A stretch of 64,000 bases of DNA. Source: Rhodopseudomonas palustris (GTDB taxonomy: Bacteria; Pseudomonadota; Alphaproteobacteria; Rhizobiales; Xanthobacteraceae). The notes beneath the pieces are model-generated. The model saw only the letters and a list, made by a program, of their open reading frames with translations. It did no database searches and was not told the origin of the DNA. Made by a program: the position numbers and the translations under genes. Where the stretch lies: NCBI RefSeq assembly GCF_003031265.1, contig NZ_CP019966.1, positions 1,488,001-1,552,000 on the forward strand. The letters are read 5' to 3'. Positions 15,872-54,475 of this stretch are shown piece by piece (the stretch's first letter is position 1; each line of letters begins with the position of its first letter).

Positions 15872-15909
15872 GCTGTCCTCACGGTGAACAAATGCCGGGT
15901 CGTCCCGGC

Positions 15910-16701
15910 TCATGCTCCCTGTGCGGCCGGGTCGTCCCGGCCGGAGCGGATTGGATGGTCGGTGCGCGGCTGCGCGATGCGCCGCGGGAAGATTTCGAGA
16001 TCGCGGGAAATCGTGGCGCCGTAGCGCTCGCGTTCCTCGGGACGGTTGCGATTGCGTTCGAACGCGATCACCCGCGTCGCCAGGCTGAAGGCCTCGGACA
16101 GATCGTGCGTGACCATCACCACGGTGAGCTCGGTCTCGTTCCACAGCCGCTTCATCAGCACGTGGATGTCGGCGCGGATGCCGGGATCAAGCGCGCCGAA
16201 CGGCTCGTCGAGCAGCAGGATCTTTGGGCCGCGCATGATCGCCTGCGCCAGCGCCAGTCGCTGCTGCATACCGCCGGACAGTGCGGACGGATATTTGATC
16301 TCGTGGCCTTTCAGCCCGACCTCGTCGAGCAGCGCCATCGCCTGCTCGGTCGCCTCGCGCCGCGCCCGGCCGAACAGCCGGCCGAGCAGACGCGACTGCT
16401 GCAGCTCGCGGCCGAGCAGCACGTTGTCGAGCACGGTGAGATGCGGAAACACCGAATAGCGCTGGAACACCACACCGCGATCGGCGTCGGGTTCGCTCGG
16501 CATCGGCTGGCCATCGATCAGGATCTGGCCGCGGGTCGGCGTCTCTTCGCCGAGCAGCATGCGCAGGAAGGTGGTCTTGCCGCAGCCGGAAGGCCCGACC
16601 AGCGCGACGAAGGCGCGCGGCGCGACGTCGAGCGTGATCCGCTCCAGCACGATGTGGTCACCGTACTCTTTCCAGACGTTGTCGAAACGGATCGCGCTCA
16701 T
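15910..16701 (-). CDS. ABC transporter ATPase of the nitrate/taurine/guanidine importer family
   Basis: The protein has 263 residues and is the motor of the importer in this operon. Walker A is GPSGCGKTT, the signature is LSGGMQQRLALAQ, Walker B is ILLLDEPFGALD, and the switch His is in VMVTHDLSEAF. It belongs to the SsuB/TauB/NrtD clade. Its start ATG overlaps the permease stop codon (ATGA), and the chain runs to 15910. With the permease and binding protein under a guanidine-I riboswitch, the likely cargo is guanidine or a guanidino compound (inference). Confidence 0.94.
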   Translation of the reverse strand: MSAIRFDNVWKEYGDHIVLERITLDVAPRAFVALVGPSGCGKTTFLRMLLGEETPTRGQILIDGQPMPSEPDADRGVVFQRYSVFPHLTVLDNVLLGRELQQSRLLGRLFGRARREATEQAMALLDEVGLKGHEIKYPSALSGGMQQRLALAQAIMRGPKILLLDEPFGALDPGIRADIHVLMKRLWNETELTVVMVTHDLSEAFSLATRVIAFERNRNRPEERERYGATISRDLEIFPRRIAQPRTDHPIRSGRDDPAAQGA

Positions 16702-18621: not shown

Positions 18622-18697
18622 CGGATCATTCCTCAGAATCTGGTCGCGATGAGGAATTGACGTGGACCATCGTTTGCCAATTCCTCGGCTTACGAGG
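18621..18697 (-). promoter_or_regulatory. Candidate expression platform of the guanidine-I riboswitch
   Basis: On the minus strand, four short segments lie between the aptamer and the first ATG. A is CCTCG (18693-18697), B is GAGGAATTG (18678-18686), C is CAATTCCTCA (18650-18659), and D is TGAGGAAT (18628-18635), which contains the Shine-Dalgarno sequence. A pairs with part of B; B pairs perfectly with C over 9 bp; C pairs perfectly with D over 8 bp. B:C and C:D exclude each other, so the leader can hide or expose the ribosome-binding site. No U-run follows, so translational rather than transcriptional control is indicated. Confidence 0.55.
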
Positions 18698-18795
18698 TCT
18701 CCCGGGCTTTTGTCCCGCCGTGCGTCCGAAGGATTTCTCCCTTCGGGGGGCAGCTCTCGGACCAGCGCCTGAAACAGGCCGGAACCCTAGCCACC
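18698..18795 (-). ncRNA. Guanidine-I riboswitch aptamer (ykkC class)
   Basis: Read on the minus strand, the leader contains all three conserved blocks of the ykkC aptamer in order: CTAGGGTTCCGG (18779-18790), CTGGTCCGAGAG (about 18756-18767), and CACGGCGGGACAAAAGCCCG, followed by GGAGA (about 18698-18722). A variable GC-rich hairpin lies between the second and third blocks. This class binds guanidinium and normally turns expression on. It sits 76 bases before the first importer gene, so it should control the whole importer-carboxylase-deiminase-allophanate hydrolase operon. Confidence 0.95.
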
Positions 18796-18847
18796 AACTC
18801 TGCGCCAATTGTTGCCCGAACGGACGGCATCTTTGAAGGTCCGCACG

Positions 18848-21494: not shown

Positions 21495-21576
21495 CGTCAT
21501 TGCGAGGAGCGCAGCGACGAAGCAATTCAGCTTCGTGCGCCGGACGATGGATTGCTTCGCTTCGCTCGCAATGACG
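21495..21576. repeat. Interspersed palindromic repeat, 'cgtcattgcgag' family, copy 1
   Basis: Imperfect palindrome bounded by CGTCATTGCGAGG and CTCGCAATGACG, with internal AAGCAAT / ATTGCTT arms. It lies between the ligase stop codon and the convergent IclR gene. Two more copies are at 37255 and 41482. Such elements are widespread in Bradyrhizobiaceae intergenic DNA. Confidence 0.85.
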
Positions 21577-28235: not shown

Positions 28236-28259
28236 GCCGGGAGCGACTACGCTCCCGGC
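28236..28259. terminator. Hairpin between convergent LivM and CusA-type genes
   Basis: Perfect 10-bp arms GCCGGGAGCG / CGCTCCCGGC with loop ACTA. It overlaps the last codons of the CusA gene. No clear U-run on either strand. Confidence 0.5.
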
Positions 28260-31200
28260 GCCAGCGCTGCCCCCGCATCGCAGCGGCGAGCCGCGCGCTT
28301 CTGCTTAAAGCCTTCGATCAGGCCGTAGATCGCCGGGATGACGATCAGCGTCAGCAGTGTCGACGACACCATGCCTCCGATCATCGGCACCGCGATCCGC
28401 TGCATGATTTCGGAGCCGGTGCCGCTGCTCCACAGGATCGGCAGCAGGCCCGCCATGATCGCCACCACGGTCATCATCTTCGGCCGGACGCGCTCGACCG
28501 CGCCTTCCATGATCGCCTCCTGTAGATCGCGCGGCGTTAATCGCCGGCCTTCAGCGGCGCATCGCGCTTTGGCGGCGGCCAGGGCGTGGTCGAGATAGAT
28601 CAGCATCACCACGCCGGTCTCGGCTGCGACGCCCGCCAGCGCGATGAAGCCGACTGCGACTGCGACCGACAGATTGAAGCCGAGCGCCCACATCAGCCAC
28701 AGCCCGCCGACCAGCGCGAACGGCAGCGACAGCATCACGATCAGCGTTTCGGTCAGCGATCGGAAGTTGAGGTAGAGCAGCAGGAAGATGATCGCGAGCG
28801 TCAGCGGCACCACGATCTTCAGCCGCGCGGTGGCGCGTTCGAGGTACTCGTACTGCCCGCTCCAGGTCACATAGGTGCCGGCCGGGAAGCTCACGCCGGC
28901 CTGCACCGCCTGCTTGGCGTCGGCGACGTAGCCGCCGAGGTCGCGGTCGCGGATATCGACATAGATGTAGGTCGCGAGCTGGCCGTTCTCGGTGCGGATC
29001 GAGGTTGGGCCGCGCGCCGGCTGCACCGTCGCCACCTCGCCGAGCGGCACGGCGCCGCCGGCCGGCAGCGGCACCAGCACGTCCCGGGCGATTCCTTGCG
29101 GATCGTCACGCAGCTCGCGTGGATAGCGCATGTTGACGGTGAAGCGCTGGCGGCCTTCCACCGTCGTGGTCACGGTTTGGCCGCCGAGCGCAGTGGCAAT
29201 GGTGTCCTGCACGTCCTGGATCGCGAGGCCGTAGCGTGCCAGCGCCGTTCGATCCGGAACAATCTCCAGATAATAGCCGCCGATGGTGCGTTCGGCATAG
29301 GCCGAGGAGGTGCCGGGGACGGTCTTCAGCACCTGCTCGACCTGTTTGGCGAGGCGGTCGATCTCGACCAGATCGGTGCCGATCACCTTGACGCCCACCG
29401 GCGTGCGGATGCCGGTCGACAGCATGTCGATCCGCGCCTTGATCGGCATTGTCCAGGCATTGGAGACGCCGGGGAATTGCAGCGCCTTGTCCATCTCGGC
29501 AATCAGCCCGTCGGTGGTCAGGCCTGGTCGCCATTCTGCTTTCGGCTTGAGGTTGATCACCGTCTCGAACATTTCGGTCGGCGCCGGATCGGTCGCAGTC
29601 GAAGCGCGGCCGGCCTTGCCGTACACCGAGGCGACCTCGGGGAAGCCGCGGATGATGCGATCCTGCATCTGCAGCAGCTCGGCCGCCTTGGTGATCGACA
29701 GGCCGGGCAGGGTGGTCGGCATGTAGAGCAGCGTGCCTTCGTCGAGCGCGGGCATGAACTCGGTGCCGAGTTGGCGCGCCGGCCAAATCGAGACGCCGAG
29801 CACCACCAAAGCCAGCACGATCACCAGCGTCTTGGCGCGCAGCACGCCGCGGATCACCGGACGATAGATCCAGATCAGCGCCCGGTTGATGATGTTGCGA
29901 TGCTCCGGAACGATCTTGCCGCGGACGAAGATCACCATCAGGGCCGGCACCAGCGTCACCGACAGCAGCGCGGCCGCCGCCATCGCGAATGTCTTGGTGA
30001 AGGCGAGCGGTCCGAACAGCCGGCCCTCTTGTGATTCCAGCGTGAAGATCGGCAGGAACGACACGGTGATGATCAAGAGACTGAAGAACAGCGCCGGTCC
30101 GACCTCGGAGGCGGCCTCGATCAGGATCGCGACGCGTGACTTGCCCGGTTCGGCGCGCTCAAGGTGCTTATGGGCGTTCTCGATCATCACGATCGCGGCG
30201 TCGACCATGGCGCCGATGGCGATCGCGATGCCGCCGAGGCTCATGATGTTGGAGCCGAGGCCGAGCAGCTTCATTGCGGCGAAAGCCATCAGCACGCCGA
30301 TCGGGAGCATCAGGATCGCCACCAGCGCGCTGCGGACGTGCAGGAGGAAGATGATGCACACCGCGGCGACCACCAGGCTCTCTTCGAGCAGCGTGTGCTT
30401 CAGCGTGTCGATCGCGCTGTAGATCAGCGTCGAACGGTCATACACCGGCACGATCTCGACAGATTTCGGCAGGCTGCTGGCGATCTCCTGGAAGCGTTTC
30501 TTGACGTGCTCGATCACATCGAGCGCGTTGACGCCGAAGCGCTGCAGCACGATACCGCTGGCGACTTCGCCTTCGCCGTTGAGCTCCGCGATGCCGCGGC
30601 GCTCATCGGGGCCGAGTTCGACCCGCGCGACGTCCTTCAGCAGCACTGGTGTGCCGCCGCTAGCCCTCAGCACGATGTTGCCGAGGTCGTTGATGTCCTT
30701 GATGTAGCCTTTGCCGCGGATGACGTATTCGAACTCCGACAGCTCGACGGTGCGGCCACCGACATCGGCATTCGACGCACGGATCGCCTCGCGCATCCGC
30801 GCCATAGTGATGCCGCGGTCACGCATCCGCTGCGGATCGAGCACCACGTTGTACTGCTTGACGAAGCCGCCGATGCTGGCGACCTCGGCGACGCCTTCGG
30901 CCTTGGCCAGCGCAAACCGCAGATTCCAGTCCTGGATGGTGCGGGTGTCAGCAAGGTTCAGCTGTTTCGACATCACCGCGTATTGATAGACCCAGCCGAC
31001 ACCGGTGGCGTCCGGGCCGATGCTCGGCGCGACGCCTGCCGGCAGGCGCGAGGCGGCGCCGTTGAGGAATTCCAGCACCCTCGACCGCGCCCAGTAGATG
31101 TCGGTTCCATCCTCGAAGATCACGTAGACGAACGACACGCCGAAGAACGAGAAGCCGCGCACCACTTTCGACTTCGGCACCGTCAACATCGCGGTGGTCA

Positions 31201-31405
31201 GCGGATAGGTGACCTGATCCTCGATCACCTGCGGCGCCTGCCCGGGATATTCGGTGTAGACGACGACCTGGGTGTCGGAGAGATCCGGAATGGCGTCGAG
31301 CGGCAGATGCAGCAGGGCGTAGAGGCCCGCAGCCGCTGCGAAGCCGGTGCCGAACAGCACCAGCAGCAGGTTGCGCGCCGACCAAGCGATGATCCGGGCA
31401 ATCAT
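28247..31405 (-). CDS. Heavy-metal efflux RND transporter, CusA/CzcA family
   Basis: The protein has 1052 residues and the RND layout of twelve membrane helices and two large periplasmic loops. Marks of the metal (HME) branch are PDLSDTQVVVYTEYPGQAP near the N-terminus and GAMVDAAIVMIENAHKHLE with the proton-relay Asp in TM4. Later segments are LVGGLWLMWALGFNLSVAVA and GFIALAGVAAETGVVMLIYL. It pumps Cu(I)/Ag(I) or divalent metals from periplasm or cytoplasm through a tripartite complex. It overlaps cusB by four bases. No outer-membrane CusC-type gene is in this window, so one is recruited from elsewhere. Copper or silver is favoured by the neighbours. Confidence 0.93.
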   Translation of the reverse strand: MIARIIAWSARNLLLVLFGTGFAAAAGLYALLHLPLDAIPDLSDTQVVVYTEYPGQAPQVIEDQVTYPLTTAMLTVPKSKVVRGFSFFGVSFVYVIFEDGTDIYWARSRVLEFLNGAASRLPAGVAPSIGPDATGVGWVYQYAVMSKQLNLADTRTIQDWNLRFALAKAEGVAEVASIGGFVKQYNVVLDPQRMRDRGITMARMREAIRASNADVGGRTVELSEFEYVIRGKGYIKDINDLGNIVLRASGGTPVLLKDVARVELGPDERRGIAELNGEGEVASGIVLQRFGVNALDVIEHVKKRFQEIASSLPKSVEIVPVYDRSTLIYSAIDTLKHTLLEESLVVAAVCIIFLLHVRSALVAILMLPIGVLMAFAAMKLLGLGSNIMSLGGIAIAIGAMVDAAIVMIENAHKHLERAEPGKSRVAILIEAASEVGPALFFSLLIITVSFLPIFTLESQEGRLFGPLAFTKTFAMAAAALLSVTLVPALMVIFVRGKIVPEHRNIINRALIWIYRPVIRGVLRAKTLVIVLALVVLGVSIWPARQLGTEFMPALDEGTLLYMPTTLPGLSITKAAELLQMQDRIIRGFPEVASVYGKAGRASTATDPAPTEMFETVINLKPKAEWRPGLTTDGLIAEMDKALQFPGVSNAWTMPIKARIDMLSTGIRTPVGVKVIGTDLVEIDRLAKQVEQVLKTVPGTSSAYAERTIGGYYLEIVPDRTALARYGLAIQDVQDTIATALGGQTVTTTVEGRQRFTVNMRYPRELRDDPQGIARDVLVPLPAGGAVPLGEVATVQPARGPTSIRTENGQLATYIYVDIRDRDLGGYVADAKQAVQAGVSFPAGTYVTWSGQYEYLERATARLKIVVPLTLAIIFLLLYLNFRSLTETLIVMLSLPFALVGGLWLMWALGFNLSVAVAVGFIALAGVAAETGVVMLIYLDHALAAAKARCAAEGRRLTPRDLQEAIMEGAVERVRPKMMTVVAIMAGLLPILWSSGTGSEIMQRIAVPMIGGMVSSTLLTLIVIPAIYGLIEGFKQKRAARRCDAGAALAPGA

Positions 31406-32796
31406 GGCTGGGCTCCGGCGTGGTCGTGTGCGTGATTGTGAGACGATGCTTGCGGCTCGGTGGTGGGGGCGTTCGCTCCGTCGGCAAAGCCCTTTAGCGC
31501 GGCCTTCAGATTGCTCTCGGCGTCGATCAGGAAGTTGGCGGAGGTGACCACCGCCTCGCCTTCGTCGATGCCGTGTTTGATCTCGAGGACGCCGTCGCCG
31601 CGACGTCCGAGCGTCACCGTCCGCGGCTCGAACCGGCCGTCGCCCTTGTCCACCAGCACGATGCGGCTGCTGCCACTATCGAGCACAGCGGAGGTGGGGA
31701 TCGTCAGCGCCGGTGCGTCGCCGGCGATGTCGATCTCGGCATCGACATACATGTCCGGCAGCAGCTTCAGATCCGGATTGGCGAGTTCGACGCGCAGCCG
31801 CGTGGTGCGGGTGTCGCGATTGACCTGCGGATAGATCACCGCAATCGTTCCGGACAGTGCGCGATCCGGGAAGGCGCGCGCCCGGATCGTCACCTTCTGG
31901 CCGACAGCGAGAGAGCCGAGATCGCGTTCGGCGACGTCGACCAGCGCCCACACCGTTGAGATGTCGGCGATTCGAAACAGCACGTCGCCGACATTGGCGC
32001 GCATGCCGTCGATTGCGTTGCGCTCCAGCACGATGCCGTCGCGTGGCGCGCGCCATTGCACCGTCACCGGCGCGGTCCGCGTCCGTTCCAATTCGGCGAT
32101 AGTCTCGTCGGGTACGTCGAGATTGACCAGCCGCTGCCGCGAGCCGCGGCCGAACGCTTCGATCGTGCTGGTGGTCTTCGAGTTGATGGTCGACAGATAT
32201 TCGGCGGCGGCCGACGCGATCGCCGAGCTGTAGATCTGCATCAGCGGCTGCCCGGCCTTGACGAAGCTGCCGGTGGTGACGTCGGCGATCTTCTCGACGA
32301 AGCTCTCGCTGCGCATCGCGATCACCGAGACGCGGCGCTCGTCGAGCTGGATCACGCCAGGGGCCTTCACCATCACATGCAGGGCGCGGCGTTCGGCTGG
32401 CTCGGATTTGACGCCGCTGCGCTGGATCTTGCCGGGCGATAGCTTCACCGTGCCGTCCGCACTGTCCTCGCCCTCATAGACGGGGACGTAGTCCATCCCC
32501 ATCGAGTCCTTCTTCGGCACCTTGGAGATGTCGGGCAGCCCCATTGGATTGCGGTAGTACAGGATCTTGCGGGTGGGATCGGGCGCGGGCTTCGGCGCCG
32601 GCTGCGCAGAGGGCTCGTCGGCCTCATACACCGGCAGATAAGCGCGGCCTTGCGCATCGGCCTTCGGCACGGCCGACCAGCGCGGCGCGCCGGATGGATC
32701 GCGGTAGTACAGCGGCGATCGCTCGTCGGCCGCAGCGGGCGCAGCGAAACAGAGTCCGATCAGAAACAGCAGGGAGGGTGAGCGCAGCTTGGTCAT
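31402..32796 (-). CDS. Metal efflux RND membrane-fusion protein, CusB type, with two heavy-metal-binding repeats
   Basis: The protein has 464 residues. After the signal peptide (LLFLIGLCFAAPAAA), two tandem about 30-residue motifs occur: YYRDPSGAPRWSAVPKADAQ and YYRNPMGLPDISKVPKKDSM. Each ends in a Y-x-P-V-Y-E-type stop. Only the second keeps the Met residues (NPMG, SMGMD) expected to bind copper. The hairpin, lipoyl, beta-barrel and membrane-proximal domains follow (about 125-430). The tail is His-rich (SSHNHAHDHAGAQ), possibly another metal site. An in-frame GTG nine bases upstream is an alternative start; ATG 32796 is preferred. Confidence 0.9.
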   Translation of the reverse strand: MTKLRSPSLLFLIGLCFAAPAAADERSPLYYRDPSGAPRWSAVPKADAQGRAYLPVYEADEPSAQPAPKPAPDPTRKILYYRNPMGLPDISKVPKKDSMGMDYVPVYEGEDSADGTVKLSPGKIQRSGVKSEPAERRALHVMVKAPGVIQLDERRVSVIAMRSESFVEKIADVTTGSFVKAGQPLMQIYSSAIASAAAEYLSTINSKTTSTIEAFGRGSRQRLVNLDVPDETIAELERTRTAPVTVQWRAPRDGIVLERNAIDGMRANVGDVLFRIADISTVWALVDVAERDLGSLAVGQKVTIRARAFPDRALSGTIAVIYPQVNRDTRTTRLRVELANPDLKLLPDMYVDAEIDIAGDAPALTIPTSAVLDSGSSRIVLVDKGDGRFEPRTVTLGRRGDGVLEIKHGIDEGEAVVTSANFLIDAESNLKAALKGFADGANAPTTEPQASSHNHAHDHAGAQP

Positions 32797-32883
32797 GACG
32801 TGCACCGTCGCGCGCCGCCAGGGCGCATCCGAATTCGGGAGATTGGAAGGACGGCGGCGCCGCGGCTGCGGCGCCGCGCTGGC

Positions 32884-33279
32884 CTATTTGAATGCCTTGA
32901 CGATCACCTTGCCGGTGACGGTCTCGGGCTCGCCCTGGACCTTCGCCGACAGCGTGATCTGGTAGCGGCCGGCCATCGGCAGGTCGGTCTTGAAGGCGTA
33001 CACGCCGGGCTCCGGCGACGGCAGCGCTGTCACCGGCGACACCATGTCGGCCATGTTGTCCGGCGCCATGTCGACGCGGGTCTTGAAGATCACCGCGCCT
33101 TCCACCGGCTTGCCGGTGGTCTTGTGGGTGAGGCGAATCGCGACGGTGACGTCGTCGCCCTTCTTCATCTCGGGCGTCTTGGGCTCGAAGGCGTAGTCAC
33201 CTGCGCCTGCCATCGCGGCGGTCGCAAACAGGGCGAGCGCGGCGGCGCAGGCCGCTGCGGTGCTGAATTTCGCAGTCAT
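32884..33279 (-). CDS. Periplasmic FixH/YtkA-like domain protein of the metal efflux operon
   Basis: About 131 residues. A signal peptide ends at AMAGA, followed by a beta-sandwich: EMKKGDDVTVAIRLTHKTTGKPV, then an Asp/Met-rich loop (VDMAPDNMADMVSP), then GVYAFKTDLPMAGRYQI. This is the FixH/YtkA-like fold often found beside Cus-type efflux genes. The Met-rich loop could bind copper (inference). Three adjacent starts exist; GGAG lies 6 bases before ATG 33279, so that one is preferred, and 33282 is possible. Confidence 0.8.
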   Translation of the reverse strand: MTAKFSTAAACAAALALFATAAMAGAGDYAFEPKTPEMKKGDDVTVAIRLTHKTTGKPVEGAVIFKTRVDMAPDNMADMVSPVTALPSPEPGVYAFKTDLPMAGRYQITLSAKVQGEPETVTGKVIVKAFK

Positions 33280-33375
33280 CATGATCTCCAAACGTGTCTG
33301 ATCTCGTGCCGCGGCCGAACGGCGCGCAGCATTTATCGGCGCGGGCGAAACGCTCGCGCGGCGGTCAGCGAGAGA

Positions 33376-33774: not shown

Positions 33775-34317
33775 CCCGCTTTCAGCTCGCCAAGGGCTAT
33801 CGGCGATCCGATAGCACGATGCCAGAGGTAAGACTTGTCACGCGTCAATTTCAAGACCGACGCTTATAGAAGGCGCGACGGTCTCGATTTTGGTGATCAT
33901 ACCCCTGCAGGGTATCCGGGCGCAAGGGTGCCGTTTCGGCATCCGCCACGGGGCTGGCGCGCGCGCCGGGCGCTGCATCGAGCCTCCCTGGTGCCGTGAC
34001 ACCTGTCCGTCGCCTGCTGCCGGCCCTGCAGTGGCCGTCGGGACACAATTCCACATCCATCTAAAGAATTATTCTCGTGGCGCGAAGGAACTCATTCTTC
34101 TGCGAGCGCCTTCGAGAAAATGCACTGCTAATCGTCCGGGTTGAATCGACAGCAATGAGTTGAGTGCATCTGTTAGTAGAAATCTATTCTATTAGTTGTG
34201 TGTTTGGCGACAGATCGCTGACATGGACACAACTCAAATCTTCTCCTATTCCGCGAAGGTGGTCCATTTGAGCGACGCGCCGGCACTTGGGTGCCGCGGC
34301 GCCGAGGGTAGTGATTC
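33775..34317. other. Divergent intergenic region between metal efflux and encapsulin loci
   Basis: 543 bases without a convincing gene; short frames here have no family match or ribosome-binding site. The left part holds the ATACCC/GGGTAT operator. The right part (about 34060-34210) is markedly AT-rich for this genome, with AGAATTATTCT (5-bp arms) at 34066-34076, and is the likely promoter of the encapsulin operon. Confidence 0.6.
33899..33915. promoter_or_regulatory. CsoR/FrmR-like metal-responsive operator candidate
   Basis: ATACCC-CTGCA-GGGTAT, perfect 6-bp arms with 5-base spacer, 124 bases before the first gene of the metal efflux operon. TACCC...GGGTA half-sites are typical of copper (CsoR) and nickel (RcnR) repressors. 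No CsoR-type gene is present in this window, so the cognate regulator would be encoded elsewhere. Confidence 0.45.
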
Positions 34318-35262
34318 ATGACTGAAGATACCGAAGTCCGCAGGACGCTCGCTGAAGGCGCTGCGCGCCAACTCGCCAACGCGACCAAGACCCGCGCGCA
34401 ATGGGGCGGCATCTCCCCGCGCTGGCTGGTGCCGCTGTTGCAATGGACGCCGGTCGAGGCTGGTATCTTCCGTCTCAATCGCGTCAAGGAAACGCGCGGC
34501 GCGACCGCATCTGCCTCGTTCGATGTCGAATGCAGCCCGCGGCGCGACCGCGATCCGGATCTGCCGGAGACCTTCGTCGACTACGAGGAGCATCCGCGCG
34601 AGTACTTCCTCAACGCAGTGACGACCGTGCTGGACGTGCAGACCCGCGTGTCCGACCTCTACAGCCATCCGTTCGATCAGATCCAGGAGCAGCTGCGGCT
34701 GCTGATCGAGAAGGTCAAGGAGCGGCAGGAAGGCGAACTGATCAACAACGCCGAATATGGCCTGCTCGCCAACACCGCGCCGTCGCAGCGGATTTCGACC
34801 CGGAAGGGCCCCCCGACCCCGGACGATCTCGATGAGCTGATCACCAAGGTCTGGAAGGAGCCGGCATTCTTCCTGGCGCATCCGCGCGCGATCGCTGCGT
34901 TCGGTCGCGAGTGCACCCGCCGCGGCGTGCCGCCGCCGACCATCAATATGTTCGGTTCGCCGTTCCTCACCTGGCGCGGGCTGCCGCTGGTGCCGTCCGA
35001 CAAGGTGCCGTTCGACGAAGCCGGCCGCACCAAGATCCTTCTGCTGCGCACCGGCGAGAAGAAGCAGGGCGTGGTCGGTCTGTTCCAGCCCGGCGTGCCG
35101 GGCGAAGTGGCGCCGAGCCTGTCGGTGCGGTTCATGGGCATCAACCGCAAGGCGATCGCCTCGTATCTGATCTCGCTGTACTGCTCGCTGGCGGTGCTGA
35201 CCGAGGACGCGCTCGGTGTGCTCGATGACGTCGAGGTCGGTACGTATCATGAGTACGCCTGA
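34318..35262 (+). CDS. Family 2A encapsulin shell protein (SrpI/MMPI-like)
   Basis: The protein has 314 residues, with an HK97-type capsid fold expected. It self-assembles into an icosahedral protein compartment. Family 2 marks are ARQLANATKTRAQWGGISPR followed by WLVPLLQWTPVEAGIFRLNR, a Glu-rich E-loop region, and the C-terminal ISLYCSLAVLTEDALGVLDD. No cyclic-nucleotide-binding insertion is present, which separates 2A from 2B shells. The two following genes, a cysteine desulfurase with a long disordered extension and a serine acetyltransferase, are the known partners of family 2A encapsulins. Expected role: a cytosolic sulfur-storage or sulfur-mobilising compartment. The desulfurase start overlaps its stop codon region by 14 bases. 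Confidence 0.93.
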   Translation: MTEDTEVRRTLAEGAARQLANATKTRAQWGGISPRWLVPLLQWTPVEAGIFRLNRVKETRGATASASFDVECSPRRDRDPDLPETFVDYEEHPREYFLNAVTTVLDVQTRVSDLYSHPFDQIQEQLRLLIEKVKERQEGELINNAEYGLLANTAPSQRISTRKGPPTPDDLDELITKVWKEPAFFLAHPRAIAAFGRECTRRGVPPPTINMFGSPFLTWRGLPLVPSDKVPFDEAGRTKILLLRTGEKKQGVVGLFQPGVPGEVAPSLSVRFMGINRKAIASYLISLYCSLAVLTEDALGVLDDVEVGTYHEYA

Positions 35263-37228
35263 GCCGACCCTGCCGCATCCGGGCTCGGCGGCACTGCCGC
35301 AAGGCGGAGCGCTGCCGCATCCGGCGTCGCTGGAGCAGGCGTCCGCCGCAGCGGTCGGTGCACCGGATGTCGCCTCGATCGCGCGGCTGGCCAACGCGTT
35401 TTTCTCGGCGTTGCCGACCGGGGCGGTGCCGGAGCCCGGCGCCGCGCTCGGCTCGGCGCCACTGTTTGCCGCCGAGCCGCTGCACAACGCGATTCCCGGC
35501 ACGCCGGCGCTATCGCCCTCCTATAAGCCGAACCACAATCCCGGCGCGGCCTCGCCGATCCCCACCGTGGGCGCGGCGCGGCCGTCGGCACCGATCTTCG
35601 CGCTCGATCCTAATCTGGCGCCGGAGCCGACCACGGCGGTTGGCTCGTTGCCGCAGGAGCTGAAGGTGCCGCTCGCGGCTCCGCCTGTGGCGCCGCCGCC
35701 TCCGTCTGCACCAGCGGTGCAGCCTGTGTTTGCGCGTGACACTGATCTGGCCGCGCTACCCGGCCGGCTCGACGAATCCCGCAGCTTCGTGCCGCGCACT
35801 GCATTGCCGAGCGCGGGGCCATTCGGTGCCGACGCCGCGGCGACGGCAGCGCCGTTGTACTTTCTTGCGGACAATCCGGCCCTGGCCCATGCGACGCCGG
35901 CATCAGCAGCGCCGCCCCGTGTCGATACCTTCGACCTCACCGGATTGGCTCCGCAGCATCGCCCCGACGTGCACGTGCTCGATCTGTCCGGCGCAAGGCC
36001 GTTCGACGCCAACGTCTTCAAGCGTGATTTCCCGATCCTGCGCGAGACCGTCAACGGTCGGCCGCTGGTGTGGCTCGACAACGGCGCCACGACGCAGAAG
36101 CCACAATGCGTGATTGATCGGCTGGTGCAGTTCTACACGCACGAGAATTCCAACATCCATCGTGCCGCCCACACGCTGGCGGCGCGTTCGACCGATGCCT
36201 ATGAGGCAGCCCGCGACAAGGTGCGTGGCTTCATCAATGCGCCGTCGGTGAAGGACATCGTGTTCGTGCGCGGCGCCACCGAGGCGATCAACCTCGTGGC
36301 GCAGGCCTGGAGCCGCCGCAATGTCGGCGAAGGCGACGAGATCGTGGTGTCGCATCTCGAGCACCACGCCAACATCGTGCCGTGGCAGCAGCTCGCGGCC
36401 GAGAAGGGCGCGCGCTTGCGCGTTGCGCCAGTCGACGATCACGGCCAGATCCTGCTCGACGAATACGAGAAGCTGCTCGGGCCGAAGACCAAGATCGTCG
36501 CGTTCACGCAAGTCTCCAACGCGCTCGGCACGGTCACCCCGGTCGCTGAGATGACCGCGCTGGCGCATCGCCACGGCGCCAAGGTGCTGGTCGACGGTGC
36601 TCAGGGCGTCTGCCACATGCCGGTCGACGTCCAGGCGCTGGATGTCGACTTCTACGCCTTCTCCGGTCACAAGATGTTCGCGCCGACCGGGATCGGCGTG
36701 CTGTACGGCAAGGCCGATGTCCTCGAAGCGATGCCACCGTGGCAGGGCGGCGGCAACATGATCGCCGACGTCACTTTCGAGAAGACGATCTTCCAGGGGC
36801 CGCCGGATCGGTTCGAAGCCGGCACCGGCAATATCGCCGATGCGGTCGGTCTTGGCGCGGCGATCGATTACTTGACCCGCATTGGCATGGCCAACATTGC
36901 GGCGCACGAGCATGAGCTGCTTGCCTATGGCACCGAGCACCTGCTGACGGTGCCGGGCCTCAAGCTGATCGGCACTGCGCGCGAGAAGGCCGGCATCCTG
37001 TCGTTCGTGCTCGATGGCTGCCGCAGCGAGGATGTCGGAAAGGCGCTCGATCGCGAAGGCATCGCAGTGCGCGCCGGCCATCATTGCGCCCAGCCGATCC
37101 TGCGCCGGTTCGGGCTGGAAAGCACGGTGCGGCCGTCGCTCGCCCTCTATAACACCCATGACGACATCGACGCACTGGTCGACGCGTTGCGCCGACTGCA
37201 GAGCGGGCGGGGCGTGCGCGGGAACTGA
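35249..37228 (+). CDS. SufS-type cysteine desulfurase with N-terminal encapsulin-targeting extension
   Basis: The protein has 659 residues against about 410 for ordinary SufS. Residues 1-250 are disordered, rich in Ala and Pro, with short ordered-looking pieces such as LPHPGSAALPQGGALPHP and SIARLANAFFSALP. The enzyme core starts at FKRDFPILRETV. PLP is bound by K475 in FSGHKMFAPTG, and the catalytic persulfide Cys is C613 in RAGHHCAQP. The enzyme takes sulfur from L-cysteine, giving alanine. The extension is expected to anchor it inside the encapsulin shell, as known for family 2A cargo. ATG 35249 gives the short MSTPEPTLPHPG N-terminus; an earlier in-frame start lies inside the shell gene. 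Confidence 0.94.
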   Translation: MSTPEPTLPHPGSAALPQGGALPHPASLEQASAAAVGAPDVASIARLANAFFSALPTGAVPEPGAALGSAPLFAAEPLHNAIPGTPALSPSYKPNHNPGAASPIPTVGAARPSAPIFALDPNLAPEPTTAVGSLPQELKVPLAAPPVAPPPPSAPAVQPVFARDTDLAALPGRLDESRSFVPRTALPSAGPFGADAAATAAPLYFLADNPALAHATPASAAPPRVDTFDLTGLAPQHRPDVHVLDLSGARPFDANVFKRDFPILRETVNGRPLVWLDNGATTQKPQCVIDRLVQFYTHENSNIHRAAHTLAARSTDAYEAARDKVRGFINAPSVKDIVFVRGATEAINLVAQAWSRRNVGEGDEIVVSHLEHHANIVPWQQLAAEKGARLRVAPVDDHGQILLDEYEKLLGPKTKIVAFTQVSNALGTVTPVAEMTALAHRHGAKVLVDGAQGVCHMPVDVQALDVDFYAFSGHKMFAPTGIGVLYGKADVLEAMPPWQGGGNMIADVTFEKTIFQGPPDRFEAGTGNIADAVGLGAAIDYLTRIGMANIAAHEHELLAYGTEHLLTVPGLKLIGTAREKAGILSFVLDGCRSEDVGKALDREGIAVRAGHHCAQPILRRFGLESTVRPSLALYNTHDDIDALVDALRRLQSGRGVRGN

Positions 37229-37254
37229 TGGGAAGATGTCGCGTCTGAGGATGT

Positions 37255-37336
37255 CGTCATTGCGAGGAGCGAAGCGACGAAGCAATCCAGCTTCGTGCAC
37301 TGAGCTGGATTGCTTCGCCTTCGGCTCGCAATGACG
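37255..37336. repeat. Interspersed palindromic repeat, 'cgtcattgcgag' family, copy 2
   Basis: Same element as at 21495: CGTCATTGCGAGG ... CTCGCAATGACG with inner GAAGCAATCCAGCT / AGCTGGATTGCTTC arms. It lies inside the encapsulin operon, between the desulfurase and acetyltransferase genes, so its hairpin would be transcribed in the operon mRNA. Confidence 0.85.
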
Positions 37337-37387
37337 GGGAGAGATTGTCACTGAACGCTGTAAGGCCAACTCACCGGAGCCGCCTGC

Positions 37388-38335
37388 ATGTCGCAATCCG
37401 CCGAGCCCCGTGTCGTCACTGAGCCAGCATGGGACCTCGGCGAGATCGTCGCCGAACTCGCAGGGCTCCGCGCCATCTCTCAGCGGCGGCGCTATCGCAG
37501 CCGGTCGCTGCCGGAATTGCCGTCGCGCGAAGCGGTGGCCGGCATCGTCGATGCCTTGGTGGCGGCGCTTTATCCGCGTCACTTCGGGCCGGCGGGGCTG
37601 TCGGAAGACAGTCTCGACATCTATGTTGCCGACACCATCGAGCAGGCGCTGCGCCGGCTGCGCCGCGAGGTCGGGCGCGAATTGCGCCTTGCCGATCTCG
37701 ACGGCGCCGCCACGCCCGGCGAGATCGAACAGCAGGCGCTGACCATCGCGGCGGAGTTCGCCCACGATCTGCCGCGGATCCGGGCGCTGCTCGACAGCGA
37801 TATTCGCGCTGCGTTCGATGGCGATCCGGCAGCGAAGAGCCTGGACGAAGTCGTGTTCTGCTATCCGGGTGTTGCCGCGATGATCCGGCATCGCATCGCA
37901 CACCGGCTCTACGTGCTCGGCGTGCCCATGCTGGCCCGGATCGTCGCGGAGATCGCCCATGCGCAGACCGGCATCGACATCCATCCCGGCGCGACCATCG
38001 GCGAGAGCTTCTTCATCGATCACGGCACCGGCGTGGTGATCGGAGAGACTGCGCGGATCGGCAAGCGGGTGCGCCTATATCAAGCCGTGACGCTCGGCGC
38101 CAAGCGGTTCGAGACCGATGAGCACGGCCGCATCGTCAAGGGTGGCGACCGTCATCCGATCATCGAGGACGAGGTCGTGATCTATGCCGGCGCCACTGTG
38201 CTCGGGCGGGTGACGATCGGGCAGGGCTCACAGGTTGGCGGCGGCGTCTGGCTGACGCGCGACGTGCCGCCGAACAGCGTCATCACCCAGGCCAAGGCGC
38301 GGTATGACGCCTTCGAGGACGGTGGCGGTATCTGA
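37388..38335 (+). CDS. Serine O-acetyltransferase (EpsC/CysE family)
   Basis: The protein has 315 residues. It makes O-acetyl-L-serine from serine and acetyl-CoA, the carbon skeleton for cysteine. The N-terminal helical half (about 1-195) is longer than in CysE and typical of the EpsC group. The left-handed beta-helix has IDIHPGATIGESFFIDHGTG, then VIGETARIGKRVRLYQAVTL and GATVLGRVTIGQGS. The key acid/base His and Asp are in the DIHPGA and IDHGTG segments. In family 2A encapsulin loci this gene pairs cysteine synthesis with desulfurase cargo. GGAG lies 8 bases before the ATG at 37388. Confidence 0.93.
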   Translation: MSQSAEPRVVTEPAWDLGEIVAELAGLRAISQRRRYRSRSLPELPSREAVAGIVDALVAALYPRHFGPAGLSEDSLDIYVADTIEQALRRLRREVGRELRLADLDGAATPGEIEQQALTIAAEFAHDLPRIRALLDSDIRAAFDGDPAAKSLDEVVFCYPGVAAMIRHRIAHRLYVLGVPMLARIVAEIAHAQTGIDIHPGATIGESFFIDHGTGVVIGETARIGKRVRLYQAVTLGAKRFETDEHGRIVKGGDRHPIIEDEVVIYAGATVLGRVTIGQGSQVGGGVWLTRDVPPNSVITQAKARYDAFEDGGGI

Positions 38336-38509
38336 GGCCGCGTGCCTGCGAAAGAATTTTCTCTCGTTTGGTGCTTTCGGGTCAGATCTTGGTCGCGATT
38401 TACTGTCAGCGCGACCGACGCGTTGTTTTTATTCTCCAGGCATTGCGATGCGGGAGGCCGGCCGGTAGTCGATAGGGAACGCCGCCACGCGGGCGGCCAC
38501 CTGGAATCG

Positions 38510-39631
38510 ATGAACGAGCCCATTATGAATGCTCCCTGGCAACCGCCCGCGGGAGAGCGCCCCGCCTTTGTATCGTCGCAGCCGACGACCGGTATTCTGA
38601 TCGACCGTGTCCGCAAGGTGTACCCGGCGCGGAAGAGCAGCGCCGAAGTGGTCGCCCTCGACGACATCAGCCTGACCGTGCCGAAAGGCTCGATCCTCGG
38701 CGTGATCGGCCGCAGCGGTGCCGGCAAGTCGACGCTGATCCGGCTGATCAACGGCCTCGACAAGCCGTCGAGCGGTCGCGTCGTCGTCAACGGCGTCGAA
38801 ATCACCGCGCTGTCCGAACGCGATCTGCGCACCGCGCGGCGCTCGATCGGCATGGTGTTCCAGCACTTCAATCTGCTGTCGTCGCGCACCGCGTTCGGCA
38901 ACGTCGCGCTGCCGCTCGAGATCGCCGGCACGCCCAAAGCCGAGATCGAAAAGCGCGTGCTGCCGCTCTTGGACATGGTCGGGCTCGCCGACAAGCGTGA
39001 TCGCTATCCGGCGGAGCTGTCCGGCGGTCAGAAGCAGCGCGTCGGCATTGCCCGGGCACTCGCGACCGAACCTTCGGTGCTGCTGTCGGACGAAGCCACC
39101 TCGGCGCTCGATCCGGAAACCACCGATCAGATCCTCGAGTTGTTGAAGCAGATCAATCGCGATCTGCATCTCACCATCCTGTTCATCACCCACGAGATGG
39201 CTGTGGTGAAAGCGCTGGCCGACCGCGTCGCGGTGATCGAAGGCGGCCGCATCGTCGAGGACGGCGCAACCTTCGATGTGTTCGCCACCCCGCGCCATGA
39301 GGTGACGCGGCGGTTTGTCTCGTCGGTGACCGGCAGCGGCGCGCCGGACTGGCTCTTGGAAAAGCTGCAGCCGCAGCAGCCGCCGGGCGGCCAGGCGGTG
39401 CTGCGCATCACCTTCAAGGGCAGCGACGCCAACCAGCCGCTGCTGTCGCGGGTGTCGCGCGATCTCGGCGTCAATCTCAACATTCTCTCGGGTCAGGTCG
39501 AGATGATCGCCGGCCATCCGTTCGGCACGCTGATCGTGTCGCTCGACGCTGGTCCCGACGTGCTGCGCCAGGTGATCGCGCAACTGTCGGCGGGCAACAA
39601 TCTGGTGGAGCAGCTCGGCTATGTCGCCTGA
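38510..39631 (+). CDS. metN: Methionine-type ABC transporter ATPase MetN
   Basis: The protein has 373 residues. Walker A is GRSGAGKST, the signature is [15 protein letters not shown], Walker B is [12 protein letters not shown] and the switch His is in [10 protein letters not shown]. The C-terminal NIL domain (about 285-373; [16 protein letters not shown]) senses methionine and inhibits transport. ATG 38510 or the downstream ATG 38525 could be the start; longer frames run into non-conserved sequence. It overlaps metI by 11 bases. The importer brings in methionine or related sulfur compounds, consistent with the encapsulin sulfur locus just upstream. Confidence 0.93.
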
Positions 39632-41388: not shown

Positions 41389-41481
41389 TGGACTGGGATA
41401 CTGGGTCGCCCGCTTTCGCGGGCGATGACGGCAGGGGTCGGCATGCGCGCCTGCTTCGCTGGTTAATCACGTCCTCTCCCC

Positions 41482-41565
41482 CTCATTGCGAGCGCAGCGA
41501 AGCAATCCATAAAGTCTCGTGTACGGAGCTGGATTGCTTCGTCGGCTTCGCCCCTCGCAATGACG
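41482..41565. repeat. Interspersed palindromic repeat, 'cgtcattgcgag' family, copy 3
   Basis: CTCATTGCGAG ... CTCGCAATGACGG, with inner AAGCAATCCA / TGGATTGCTT arms. A slightly diverged copy of the elements at 21495 and 37255. Confidence 0.8.
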
Positions 41566-47970: not shown

Positions 47971-49356
47971 TCACCACACGTTCAGGATCCATTCGCGGTT
48001 CTTCTTGACCTCCATGTCGTTGAACAGCGTGTTGGCCATCTGTTCAGCGAGCCAGGTCGCGCCGGCGTAGCCGACGACGGGGTAGCGATACAGGCCGGCG
48101 CGGTCATAGGTCGGGAAGCCGACCCGCAGCATCGGGATGTTGTAGTCGATCGCGACGAACCGCCCCTTGGAATGGCCGAGGATCAGGTCGAGTTCGAGCC
48201 CGTTCTTGATCCGGTCTTCGAGTTCGAACAGGTCGGCGTTGGTGATGATCTCCATCGGATAGTCGACGTTGTCCTTGAGCGCCGCGATCCGCGGGTCGGT
48301 GGCGTAGCCGGCATGCTCGTCGCCGAGCAGCAGCAGTACCGGCTTCATTTCGAGGTCGAGGCAGTATTCGGCGAGGCCGAGCACCAGATCCGGATTGCCG
48401 TAGATCGCCACCTTCTTATCGGCCAGGAACATGTGGGCGAGGTCGGTGATGGCGTCGAGCGCGATGCCGCGTTCCTTGACCAGCGATTCCGGGATCGGCT
48501 TGCCGGTCATCTCCTTGACGTTGCGCAGGAAGGTGTCGGTGTTGCGGATCCCGATCGGAGTCGGGCCGATCACCGCCGGCACGTCCCAGCGGGTCTGCAG
48601 CCAGGTGGCGGCGAGGCCGCCTTCGTAACGATTGAGCGCGATGGTGCCTTGCGCGTCCGCGGTCGCGGTCAGGTCCGCAATCGTGGTCGAGCCGTGCGAT
48701 ACCGCGCTCTTGTCCGGCATCAGCGGACTATCGAAGCTCTCGATTTCGAACAGCACGTTGGCCTCGACCTGCATCTCGGCCAAGAGATGCTTGAGCTCCT
48801 TGACGTCGCCCGGATTGACCCAGCCGGTGATCAAATTGATCTTCAGGCTCGGCTTGTCCTTCTTGGAGAAGTGCTTGACGAAGTCGCGCACCGCGACGTC
48901 GTAGCCGGTCACCATGCTGCCGACGAAGCTCGGGCAGTGGATCGGGATCAGATGGACCTCGCGATCTGGATATTTCACGTCGAGCAGCTCTTCCTGGAGC
49001 TTGGTGACGACGCCGTCGACGTCGTCGCCGATCACCTCGGTCGAGCAAGTGGTGATGATCGGCACCACCTTGACGTGGGGATAGCGCATCAGCAGCACGT
49101 CGACCGCTTCCTCGACGCGGTCCAGCGCGCCGAACACCGCGCCGTCCTCGTGCACCGACGAGGAGGCGATTTCGAAGCTCTCCTTCAGGTGCTGGGAGAT
49201 CAGCAGGCGGACGAACATCACGCAGCCCTGGCCGCCGTGGACGATGCCGATGCAGTCCTTGATGCCGATCGACGCGTATTGCGCGCCGGCCGGCTGGCAG
49301 GTGAAGATCGGATTGATGGTGCCGATCCGGTCCTTCGGCTTGAATTGACAGTTCAT
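47971..49356 (-). CDS. anfK: Fe-only nitrogenase beta subunit AnfK
   Basis: The protein has 461 residues. AnfK pairs with AnfD to hold the P-cluster. Its three cluster cysteines are C20 in PIFTCQPAG, C45 in GGQGCVMF and C104 in TTCSTEVIGDD. ATG 49356 is used; a TTG four codons upstream is rejected. The gene follows anfG after 12 bases. Antisense to it runs part of a very long open frame that is only a codon-bias shadow. Mature enzyme is the AnfD2G2K2 hexamer, reducing N2 with more H2 evolution than the Mo enzyme. Confidence 0.97.
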   Translation of the reverse strand: MNCQFKPKDRIGTINPIFTCQPAGAQYASIGIKDCIGIVHGGQGCVMFVRLLISQHLKESFEIASSSVHEDGAVFGALDRVEEAVDVLLMRYPHVKVVPIITTCSTEVIGDDVDGVVTKLQEELLDVKYPDREVHLIPIHCPSFVGSMVTGYDVAVRDFVKHFSKKDKPSLKINLITGWVNPGDVKELKHLLAEMQVEANVLFEIESFDSPLMPDKSAVSHGSTTIADLTATADAQGTIALNRYEGGLAATWLQTRWDVPAVIGPTPIGIRNTDTFLRNVKEMTGKPIPESLVKERGIALDAITDLAHMFLADKKVAIYGNPDLVLGLAEYCLDLEMKPVLLLLGDEHAGYATDPRIAALKDNVDYPMEIITNADLFELEDRIKNGLELDLILGHSKGRFVAIDYNIPMLRVGFPTYDRAGLYRYPVVGYAGATWLAEQMANTLFNDMEVKKNREWILNVW

Positions 49357-49368
49357 GGCGGGATCCAA

Positions 49369-49809
49369 TCAGTAGTGCTGGTCGGTGAGCTCTTCGTTGA
49401 GCGAGCCGGTGACGGTGAGATAGTCGACGCGGGCGTGCAGCTCTTTCATCAGCGCCTTGATGTCGTCCTTGGACATCGTGGCGAGCCACGGACAGGTGGC
49501 CTGATAGGCGCGCTGCAGCGTCACCGAATCGACCCAGTAGCAGCGGTCTTCCGGCGTCTCCGGCGTGAATGGCTCGCCGGCGAGCAGCTTGGCGGCGATA
49601 CCGAGGATGCCCTCGTTCTGCCGTTTGCGGTCCCAGGCCCGCGAGTGAAACTGCCAGAGGCAGTTCTTCATGATCCAGTCGACCATCTGGTCGACGCGGG
49701 CCTTGGTGACGTCGTCGAGAGCTTCATAGGCCGCGAGCGAGGCGGCCGCTGCGGCGGCGTCGGCGGGGAACGGATGTTCCGAGGCGACTTTGTAGGTGAT
49801 CTTGGTCAT
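49369..49809 (-). CDS. anfG: Fe-only nitrogenase delta subunit AnfG
   Basis: The protein has 146 residues, slightly longer than many AnfG proteins because of an Ala-rich N-terminal stretch. The conserved core includes VDQMVDWIMKNCLWQFHSRA and WDRKRQNEGIL. This small subunit exists only in alternative (V or Fe) nitrogenases and helps cofactor insertion and stability of the DK core. Its presence between anfD and anfK rules out a Mo-nitrogenase. It lies 12 bases from each neighbour. Confidence 0.97.
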   Translation of the reverse strand: MTKITYKVASEHPFPADAAAAAASLAAYEALDDVTKARVDQMVDWIMKNCLWQFHSRAWDRKRQNEGILGIAAKLLAGEPFTPETPEDRCYWVDSVTLQRAYQATCPWLATMSKDDIKALMKELHARVDYLTVTGSLNEELTDQHY

Positions 49810-49821
49810 GGGGCTCTCGTC

Positions 49822-52695
<2,874 letters not shown>

Positions 52696-52731
52696 CCGGC
52701 GGTGGATTGCGCGGGACCCCCTCACCAACGC

Positions 52732-52758
52732 AAAACGGCGGCTCGTGAGAGCCGCCGT
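52732..52758 (-). terminator. Rho-independent terminator of anfA
   Basis: Perfect 10-bp arms ACGGCGGCTC / GAGCCGCCGT with loop GTGA. On the minus strand it is followed by TTTT, 32 bases after the anfA stop codon. It separates anfA from the anfH promoter. Confidence 0.85.
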
Positions 52759-52789
52759 CAGAGTCTTCAACGCGTAGGGTGAGAGGCCA

Positions 52790-54475
<1,686 letters not shown>

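Follow-up and report, generated by a model that had tools for sequence, protein, structure and literature searches.

A family 2A encapsulin operon with a linked serine acetyltransferase in Rhodopseudomonas palustris and its uneven distribution within the genus

What purpose is served by a protein shell encoded next to a sulfur-releasing enzyme and an enzyme of cysteine supply? We address this question for a locus of Rhodopseudomonas palustris in a stretch of 64,000 nucleotides (hereafter the window, whose own coordinates are used throughout). At 34318-38335 the plus strand carries, in this order, genes for an encapsulin shell, a cysteine desulfurase (the cargo) and a serine O-acetyltransferase (SAT):

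34318..35262 (ATG to stop), plus strand: family 2A encapsulin shell protein, SrpI/MMP-I-like, 314 residues (profile and fold)
35249..37228, plus strand: cargo, SufS-type cysteine desulfurase, 659 residues, with a Pro/Ala-rich N-terminal extension over residues 1 to about 250 (NF041166, TIGR01979, PF00266, PDB 8kg1)
37388..38335 (ATG to stop), plus strand: serine O-acetyltransferase of the long type, 315 residues (NF041874, PDB 3f1x, motifs)

The shell and cargo genes overlap by 14 nucleotides (35249-35262), and 159 nucleotides separate the cargo from the SAT. A preliminary description of this DNA had placed all three open reading frames correctly, the overlap included. The program-made list of frames begins the cargo 11 codons further upstream (GTG 35216) than the start taken here, the ATG at 35249.

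The shell protein scores 518.5 bits against the NCBIfam family 2A model encap_f2a (NF041162, cut-off 380) and 357.8 bits against PF19307 (cut-off 22.8), the sole Pfam family in its 314 residues. The preliminary description had proposed a check for the HK97 fold, and this fold is indeed predicted from a shell model of 69 sequences (a model of 24 had been poor), with PDB entries 6x8m, 8wol and 8t6r as top matches. By sequence, the closest solved shell is 8t6r of Acinetobacter (E 2.5e-140). The HK97 fold is common to phage capsids, which is a point in favor of a capsid remnant, and family 2B shells are marked by a cyclic nucleotide monophosphate (cNMP)-binding insert in the E-loop, according to the available part of PMC12407261. 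On this protein the 2A model outscores the 2B model, and the Pfam scan, giving PF19307 alone, finds no cNMP-binding insert; we consider it extremely improbable that this gene is what remains of a phage capsid or codes for a 2B shell.

NCBIfam currently holds exact family models for both shell and cargo, and both genes exceed the curated cut-offs. The cargo reaches 863 bits with NF041166 (family 2A cargo cysteine desulfurase, cut-off 800) and 582 bits with TIGR01979 (sufS, cut-off 475), and also matches PF00266 and PDB 8kg1 (E 6.4e-188, catalytic part from near residue 251). The catalytic matches start at about residue 251 to 274 depending on the model, and the N-terminal extension of about 250 residues is 22 % alanine and 18 % proline with no cysteine and no tryptophan. 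The residues SGHK and GHHCAQ, which we take to provide the pyridoxal phosphate lysine and the persulfide cysteine respectively, are invariant across 25 aligned cargos. The extension contains IARLANAFFS and APLYFLADN, variants of both motifs (LARLANEFFS and AASPYYFLDG) published for SrpI-linked desulfurases in the part of PMC8049743 available to us.

The cargo N-terminal regions of L116, L117, L126, L131 and other loci were compared for YYF/FYF/YFL-type motifs (L and G numbers are our handles for loci and genomes). Among 75 cargo N-terminal regions from other genera, each of at least 100 residues with its upstream end present, two such motifs occur in 27, one in 35 and none in 13. The window cargo has a single one, APLYFLADNP; at residues 117 and 161 it also has two looser stretches of the form F-A-x-D-x-x-L-A. 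Perhaps such repeated motifs would allow multivalent targeting.

The third gene scores 173 bits against the EpsC-type model NF041874 (cut-off 150) and matches PDB 3f1x (E 5.8e-73) as a SAT of the long type. It carries IDIHPG, IDHGTG and DRHP motifs, presumably catalytic, and a C-terminal isoleucine, which is a trait of SATs that bind cysteine synthase.

To place this arrangement we examined the best 80 of at least 592 cargo relatives; with the Rhodopseudomonas contig L109 excluded, 79 loci were counted. The shell lies directly upstream of the cargo in 75 of them, and the other four show no shell on the sequence piece present. Counting SAT matches of at least 240 residues, and leaving aside shorter SAT-like matches (L139 and L147, for example, have them downstream of the cargo), 37 of the 75 loci have the order SAT-shell-cargo, which is commoner than the shell-cargo-SAT order of the window, found in three loci (all Bacteroidota, SAT 37-39 % identical). 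A SAT match lies on the opposite strand several kb distant in one locus (L125), and five loci are cut. Since many loci have a SAT, its linkage is common and the gene order of the window is a minor variant. In the available part of PMC8346489, SAT linkage to family 2A encapsulins is already known and 1281 family 2A desulfurase operons are counted. Judged by sequence, profile, fold and gene neighborhood, the locus is a family 2A encapsulin operon, a well-formed and ordinary member of a known bacterial shell family that encloses a sulfur-releasing enzyme. The preliminary description had claimed a SrpI/MMPI-like shell, a cargo with a 250-residue extension and a SAT after it in the known family 2A layout, all of which is borne out. 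We found no paper on srpI in Rhodopseudomonas palustris, although supplements may list the operon and we do not claim its absence from print.

A close known system is the SrpI-CyD encapsulin of Synechococcus elongatus PCC 7942 (PDB 6x8m/6x8t; available part of PMC8049743). The window differs from it by a few extra shell residues around positions 60-68, by the variant cargo motifs (IARLANAFFS, APLYFLADN) and by a SAT gene after the cargo; the extra residues are common to the genus and Hyphomicrobium and shorter in Methylosinus. The Acinetobacter family 2A loci (L160, L161) share a linked SAT of the long type, at 49 % identity, but have the SAT-shell-cargo order. Among the shells compared, the nearest outside the genus are those of Hyphomicrobium (L110, 85 %), G326 (L104, same class, 84 %) and Methylosinus (L115, 81 %), all grouping with the genus in the tree. 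L110 and L115 differ from the window in having no long SAT match beside the cargo, while the L104 piece is too short to tell.

Within the genus, the whole three-gene cassette is present in 11 of 16 genomes while the remaining five have none of the three genes. Shell, cargo and long SAT occur in the same 11 genomes (in G008 the SAT is split across two contigs). All 16 have a second SAT-like gene, with 34-38 % identity in the matched part, and in the five cassette-free genomes no other match reaches E <= 1e-20. Two of these five, G005 (L096) and G015 (L097), display an empty site:

33849..38419, no strand: segment missing from two close relatives that have both flanks (approximate left boundary at 33.80-33.93 kb, depending on the genome and on how the aligner was set)

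The missing segment is about 4.6 kb. At 90-95 % identity the left flank runs as far as 33.80-33.85 kb and the right one resumes at 38420, with about 0.23-0.28 kb between them; in G005 a looser alignment extends the left flank up to about 33.93 kb. There is no shell match anywhere in either genome. As aligned, the empty sites would fit gain or loss of the cassette alike. In close relatives the three genes are either all present or all absent, and they most likely form an optional sulfur-handling module.

The methionine ATP-binding cassette (ABC) transporter genes metNIQ lie directly 3' of the SAT in seven of the 11 carriers (G000, G003, G004, G007, G009, G011, G013) and not directly after it in three (G001, G010, G014); in G010 and G014 the cassette sits away from metNIQ, and G008 is cut. 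In the cassette-free L097 (G015) we observed metQ as two adjoining match pieces, as if frameshifted, around G015:C5:514298-515066. A search of 45 other genera for the shell gave a sole match, in G021, as two pieces of a 484-residue frame that looks like a 2B shell. Three of 385 sampled genomes of the class, including our own, are above the 2A cut-off, and one of them, G343, has a 520-residue frame that likewise looks like 2B. In the trees, seven genus shells form one group (support 87/93), as do six genus SATs (support 100/99).

What would such a compartment do? Taken as a whole, the locus is probably best explained as a family 2A encapsulin operon in which an encapsulated desulfurase has its sulfur held or passed on and is fed by the SAT. 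The shell protein would assemble into an HK97-fold icosahedral compartment and the N-terminal extension would draw the desulfurase into it. Cysteine would enter by the shell pores and be converted to alanine, the sulfur being kept inside as (poly)sulfur or handed on, while the linked SAT would boost O-acetylserine, hence cysteine, feeding the desulfurase. The identity of the genes, the fold of the shell, the motifs for catalysis and targeting, and the linkage and joint inheritance of the three genes are read here from sequence; assembly, loading, sulfur sequestration and induction under sulfur stress we infer for the window system from its relatives. One relative's encapsulin is induced by sulfate starvation, is loaded through an N-terminal domain, has a positively charged pore and holds an enzyme that is more active inside (PMC8049743, available part). 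By this analogy, sulfur sequestration fed by the SAT is the most likely function.

Several observations weigh against this interpretation. The SAT scores 174 bits against the cysE model TIGR01172, below its cut-off of 210.65. In 29 of the 75 loci more than 2.5 kb of sequence ahead of the shell can be inspected, yet no SAT match of at least 240 residues was found, and thus SAT is not required by family 2A. Storage itself rests on relatives, encapsulin sulfur storage having reportedly been described in a study of A. baumannii. In the available text of PMC8049743 it is one of several possibilities offered, and PMC12407261 and PMC12140327, as far as available, each state it in one sentence citing others. 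Finally, co-transcription of the SAT could be weakened by a palindrome:

37255..37343, no strand: dispersed palindromic repeat between cargo and SAT (RNA fold z -3.74, comparison of relatives)

Of the 10 genus relatives compared, eight have this repeat at the cargo-SAT site, L060 and L061 in a shorter form; L062 and L063 are without it and have a cargo-SAT gap of 8 nucleotides. It occurs at three places in the window (37255-37343, 41473-41565 and 21517-21560), the copies being recovered with a shorter pattern after one allowing 3 mismatches had matched nothing.

Instead of a store, the compartment may be a booster or director of activity, a SufE-like shell that speeds the desulfurase and hands its sulfur to iron-sulfur (Fe-S) cluster or thio-cofactor assembly. 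In its favor, kcat was roughly seven times higher on encapsulation in PMC8049743 (available part), whose authors themselves raise this possibility. Moreover a separate SufS-like gene, with 49-52 % identity in the matched part, is present in each of the 16 genus genomes, so that a specialized branch could be the task of the encapsulated enzyme. However, the five cassette-free genomes show just a SufS-like and a NifS-like match at E <= 1e-20, meaning that general cluster assembly needs no cassette, and neither a rhodanese nor a SufE gene turned up next to the cassette, though not every open reading frame there is annotated. We regard a booster as possible but clearly less likely than sequestration fed by the SAT.

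The preliminary description had suggested a narrower role, that the cassette acts as a sulfur buffer dedicated to nitrogenase and the other Fe-S needs of a diazotroph. The genome does have nifH, and some 10 kb downstream of the cassette there is a cluster for Fe-only nitrogenase:

47971-54475, minus strand: Fe-only nitrogenase cluster (anfK 47971-49368, anfD 49822-51390, nifH-type gene 51442-52260)
52790-54475, minus strand: NifA-like activator in this cluster (TIGR01817, below cut-off)

Across the genus, anfD is above cut-off in eight of 16 genomes, plus a partial match in G008, and eight of these nine (G008 via its partial match) have the cassette. Counted by cassette, Fe-only nitrogenase is found in 8 of the 11 genomes that have it and in 1 of the 5 that lack it (Fisher p = 0.11), which is not significant in a test that ignores relatedness, and the association is confounded by relatedness. 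Furthermore nifH is above cut-off in all 16 genus genomes, including the five without cassette, and in only eight of 40 other carrier genomes, leaving 32 without (carriers only, from the 80 cargo loci with records not titled as metagenome-assembled genomes, less L109, L111 and L182). The suggested role is not supported by these counts, and we judge it very unlikely; presence and absence argue against a strict need for the cassette in diazotrophs.

The region upstream of the shell gene contains possible regulatory elements, listed here with a variant that lies beyond the SAT:

34063..34076, plus strand: block A element AAAGAATTATTCTC, upstream of the cassette, a possible regulator site (pattern search)
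34173..34190, plus strand: block C TTAGTAGAAnnnnATTCT, retained in varying form 5' of the shell gene throughout the genus, a possible activator site (alignment)
34224..34252, plus strand: promoter-like TGGACA-N17-TATTCC, similar across the genus (read by eye)
38351-38363: close variant of the block A element (pattern search)

This region is conserved between cassettes at unrelated sites, with 57 invariant columns in seven sequences compared to at most 8 in 60 shuffles. Because shuffling removes relatedness, these columns show homology of the upstream regions and not selection; similarity between cassettes with unrelated flanks indicates that the region was inherited with the genes. In Hyphomicrobium, G326 and Methylosinus the genus upstream blocks were not found (best matches 2 to 6 mismatches). 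A sigma-70 consensus scan gave 0 sites, and no known regulator of the upstream region was identified.

The block A pattern AAAGAATN{0,4}TTCTC has two exact matches in the 5.27-Mb genome, none in the reversed control and none in 100 window shuffles, controls that overstate the case because the pattern was devised after seeing both copies. As AAAGAAT-N1-2-TTCTC it occurs exactly twice in the genome, one copy to each side of the cassette: the first is 241 nucleotides ahead of the start codon of the shell gene, the second 146 nucleotides ahead of the likely metN ATG at 38510 (38495 is an in-frame codon preceding it). The copy before metN is kept only loosely in L059, L060, L061 and the empty-site relatives, and block A as a shared regulatory site is suggestive only. 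That a sulfur-starvation regulator would switch the cassette, as an optional module, jointly with the adjoining metNIQ is doubtful; if true, the encapsulin would belong to the cysteine and methionine scarcity response in these phototrophs. A separate CGTTGTTTTTATTCT block upstream of metN (38419-38434) is strongly conserved in 11 genus sequences, cassette or not, with one base differing in two.

Block C was rejected as a shared regulatory motif. With 2 mismatches, TTAGNAGAANNNNATTCT gave 12 genome places versus 8 for the reversed control, and no sulfur regulon. Four of six examined among the 11 other places are inside an open frame of more than 300 residues; seven proteins encoded beside the other two and scanned are, by Pfam, an aminotransferase class I/II, BioY, an M48 peptidase, a phosphopantetheinyl transferase, a hydrolase, a curlin-repeat protein and CsgG.

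Elsewhere in the window, genes for a CusA/CzcA-type metal efflux permease, a CusB-like adaptor and a YtkA-like protein adjoin the cassette (28247-33291, minus strand). Rfam at gathering threshold gave no match within or beside the cassette. A guanidine-II riboswitch (15895-15943) and a guanidine-I riboswitch (18697-18801), both on the minus strand and above gathering score, lie less than 3 kb apart.

To what was known of these systems we add the co-segregation of the cassette within a genus, its empty site and its conserved upstream region. Rhodopseudomonas includes genetically tractable phototrophic members. Family 2A encapsulins are widespread, and on the question of why cells keep them, the presence and absence of a clean three-gene cassette at one site in close relatives offers a natural comparison.

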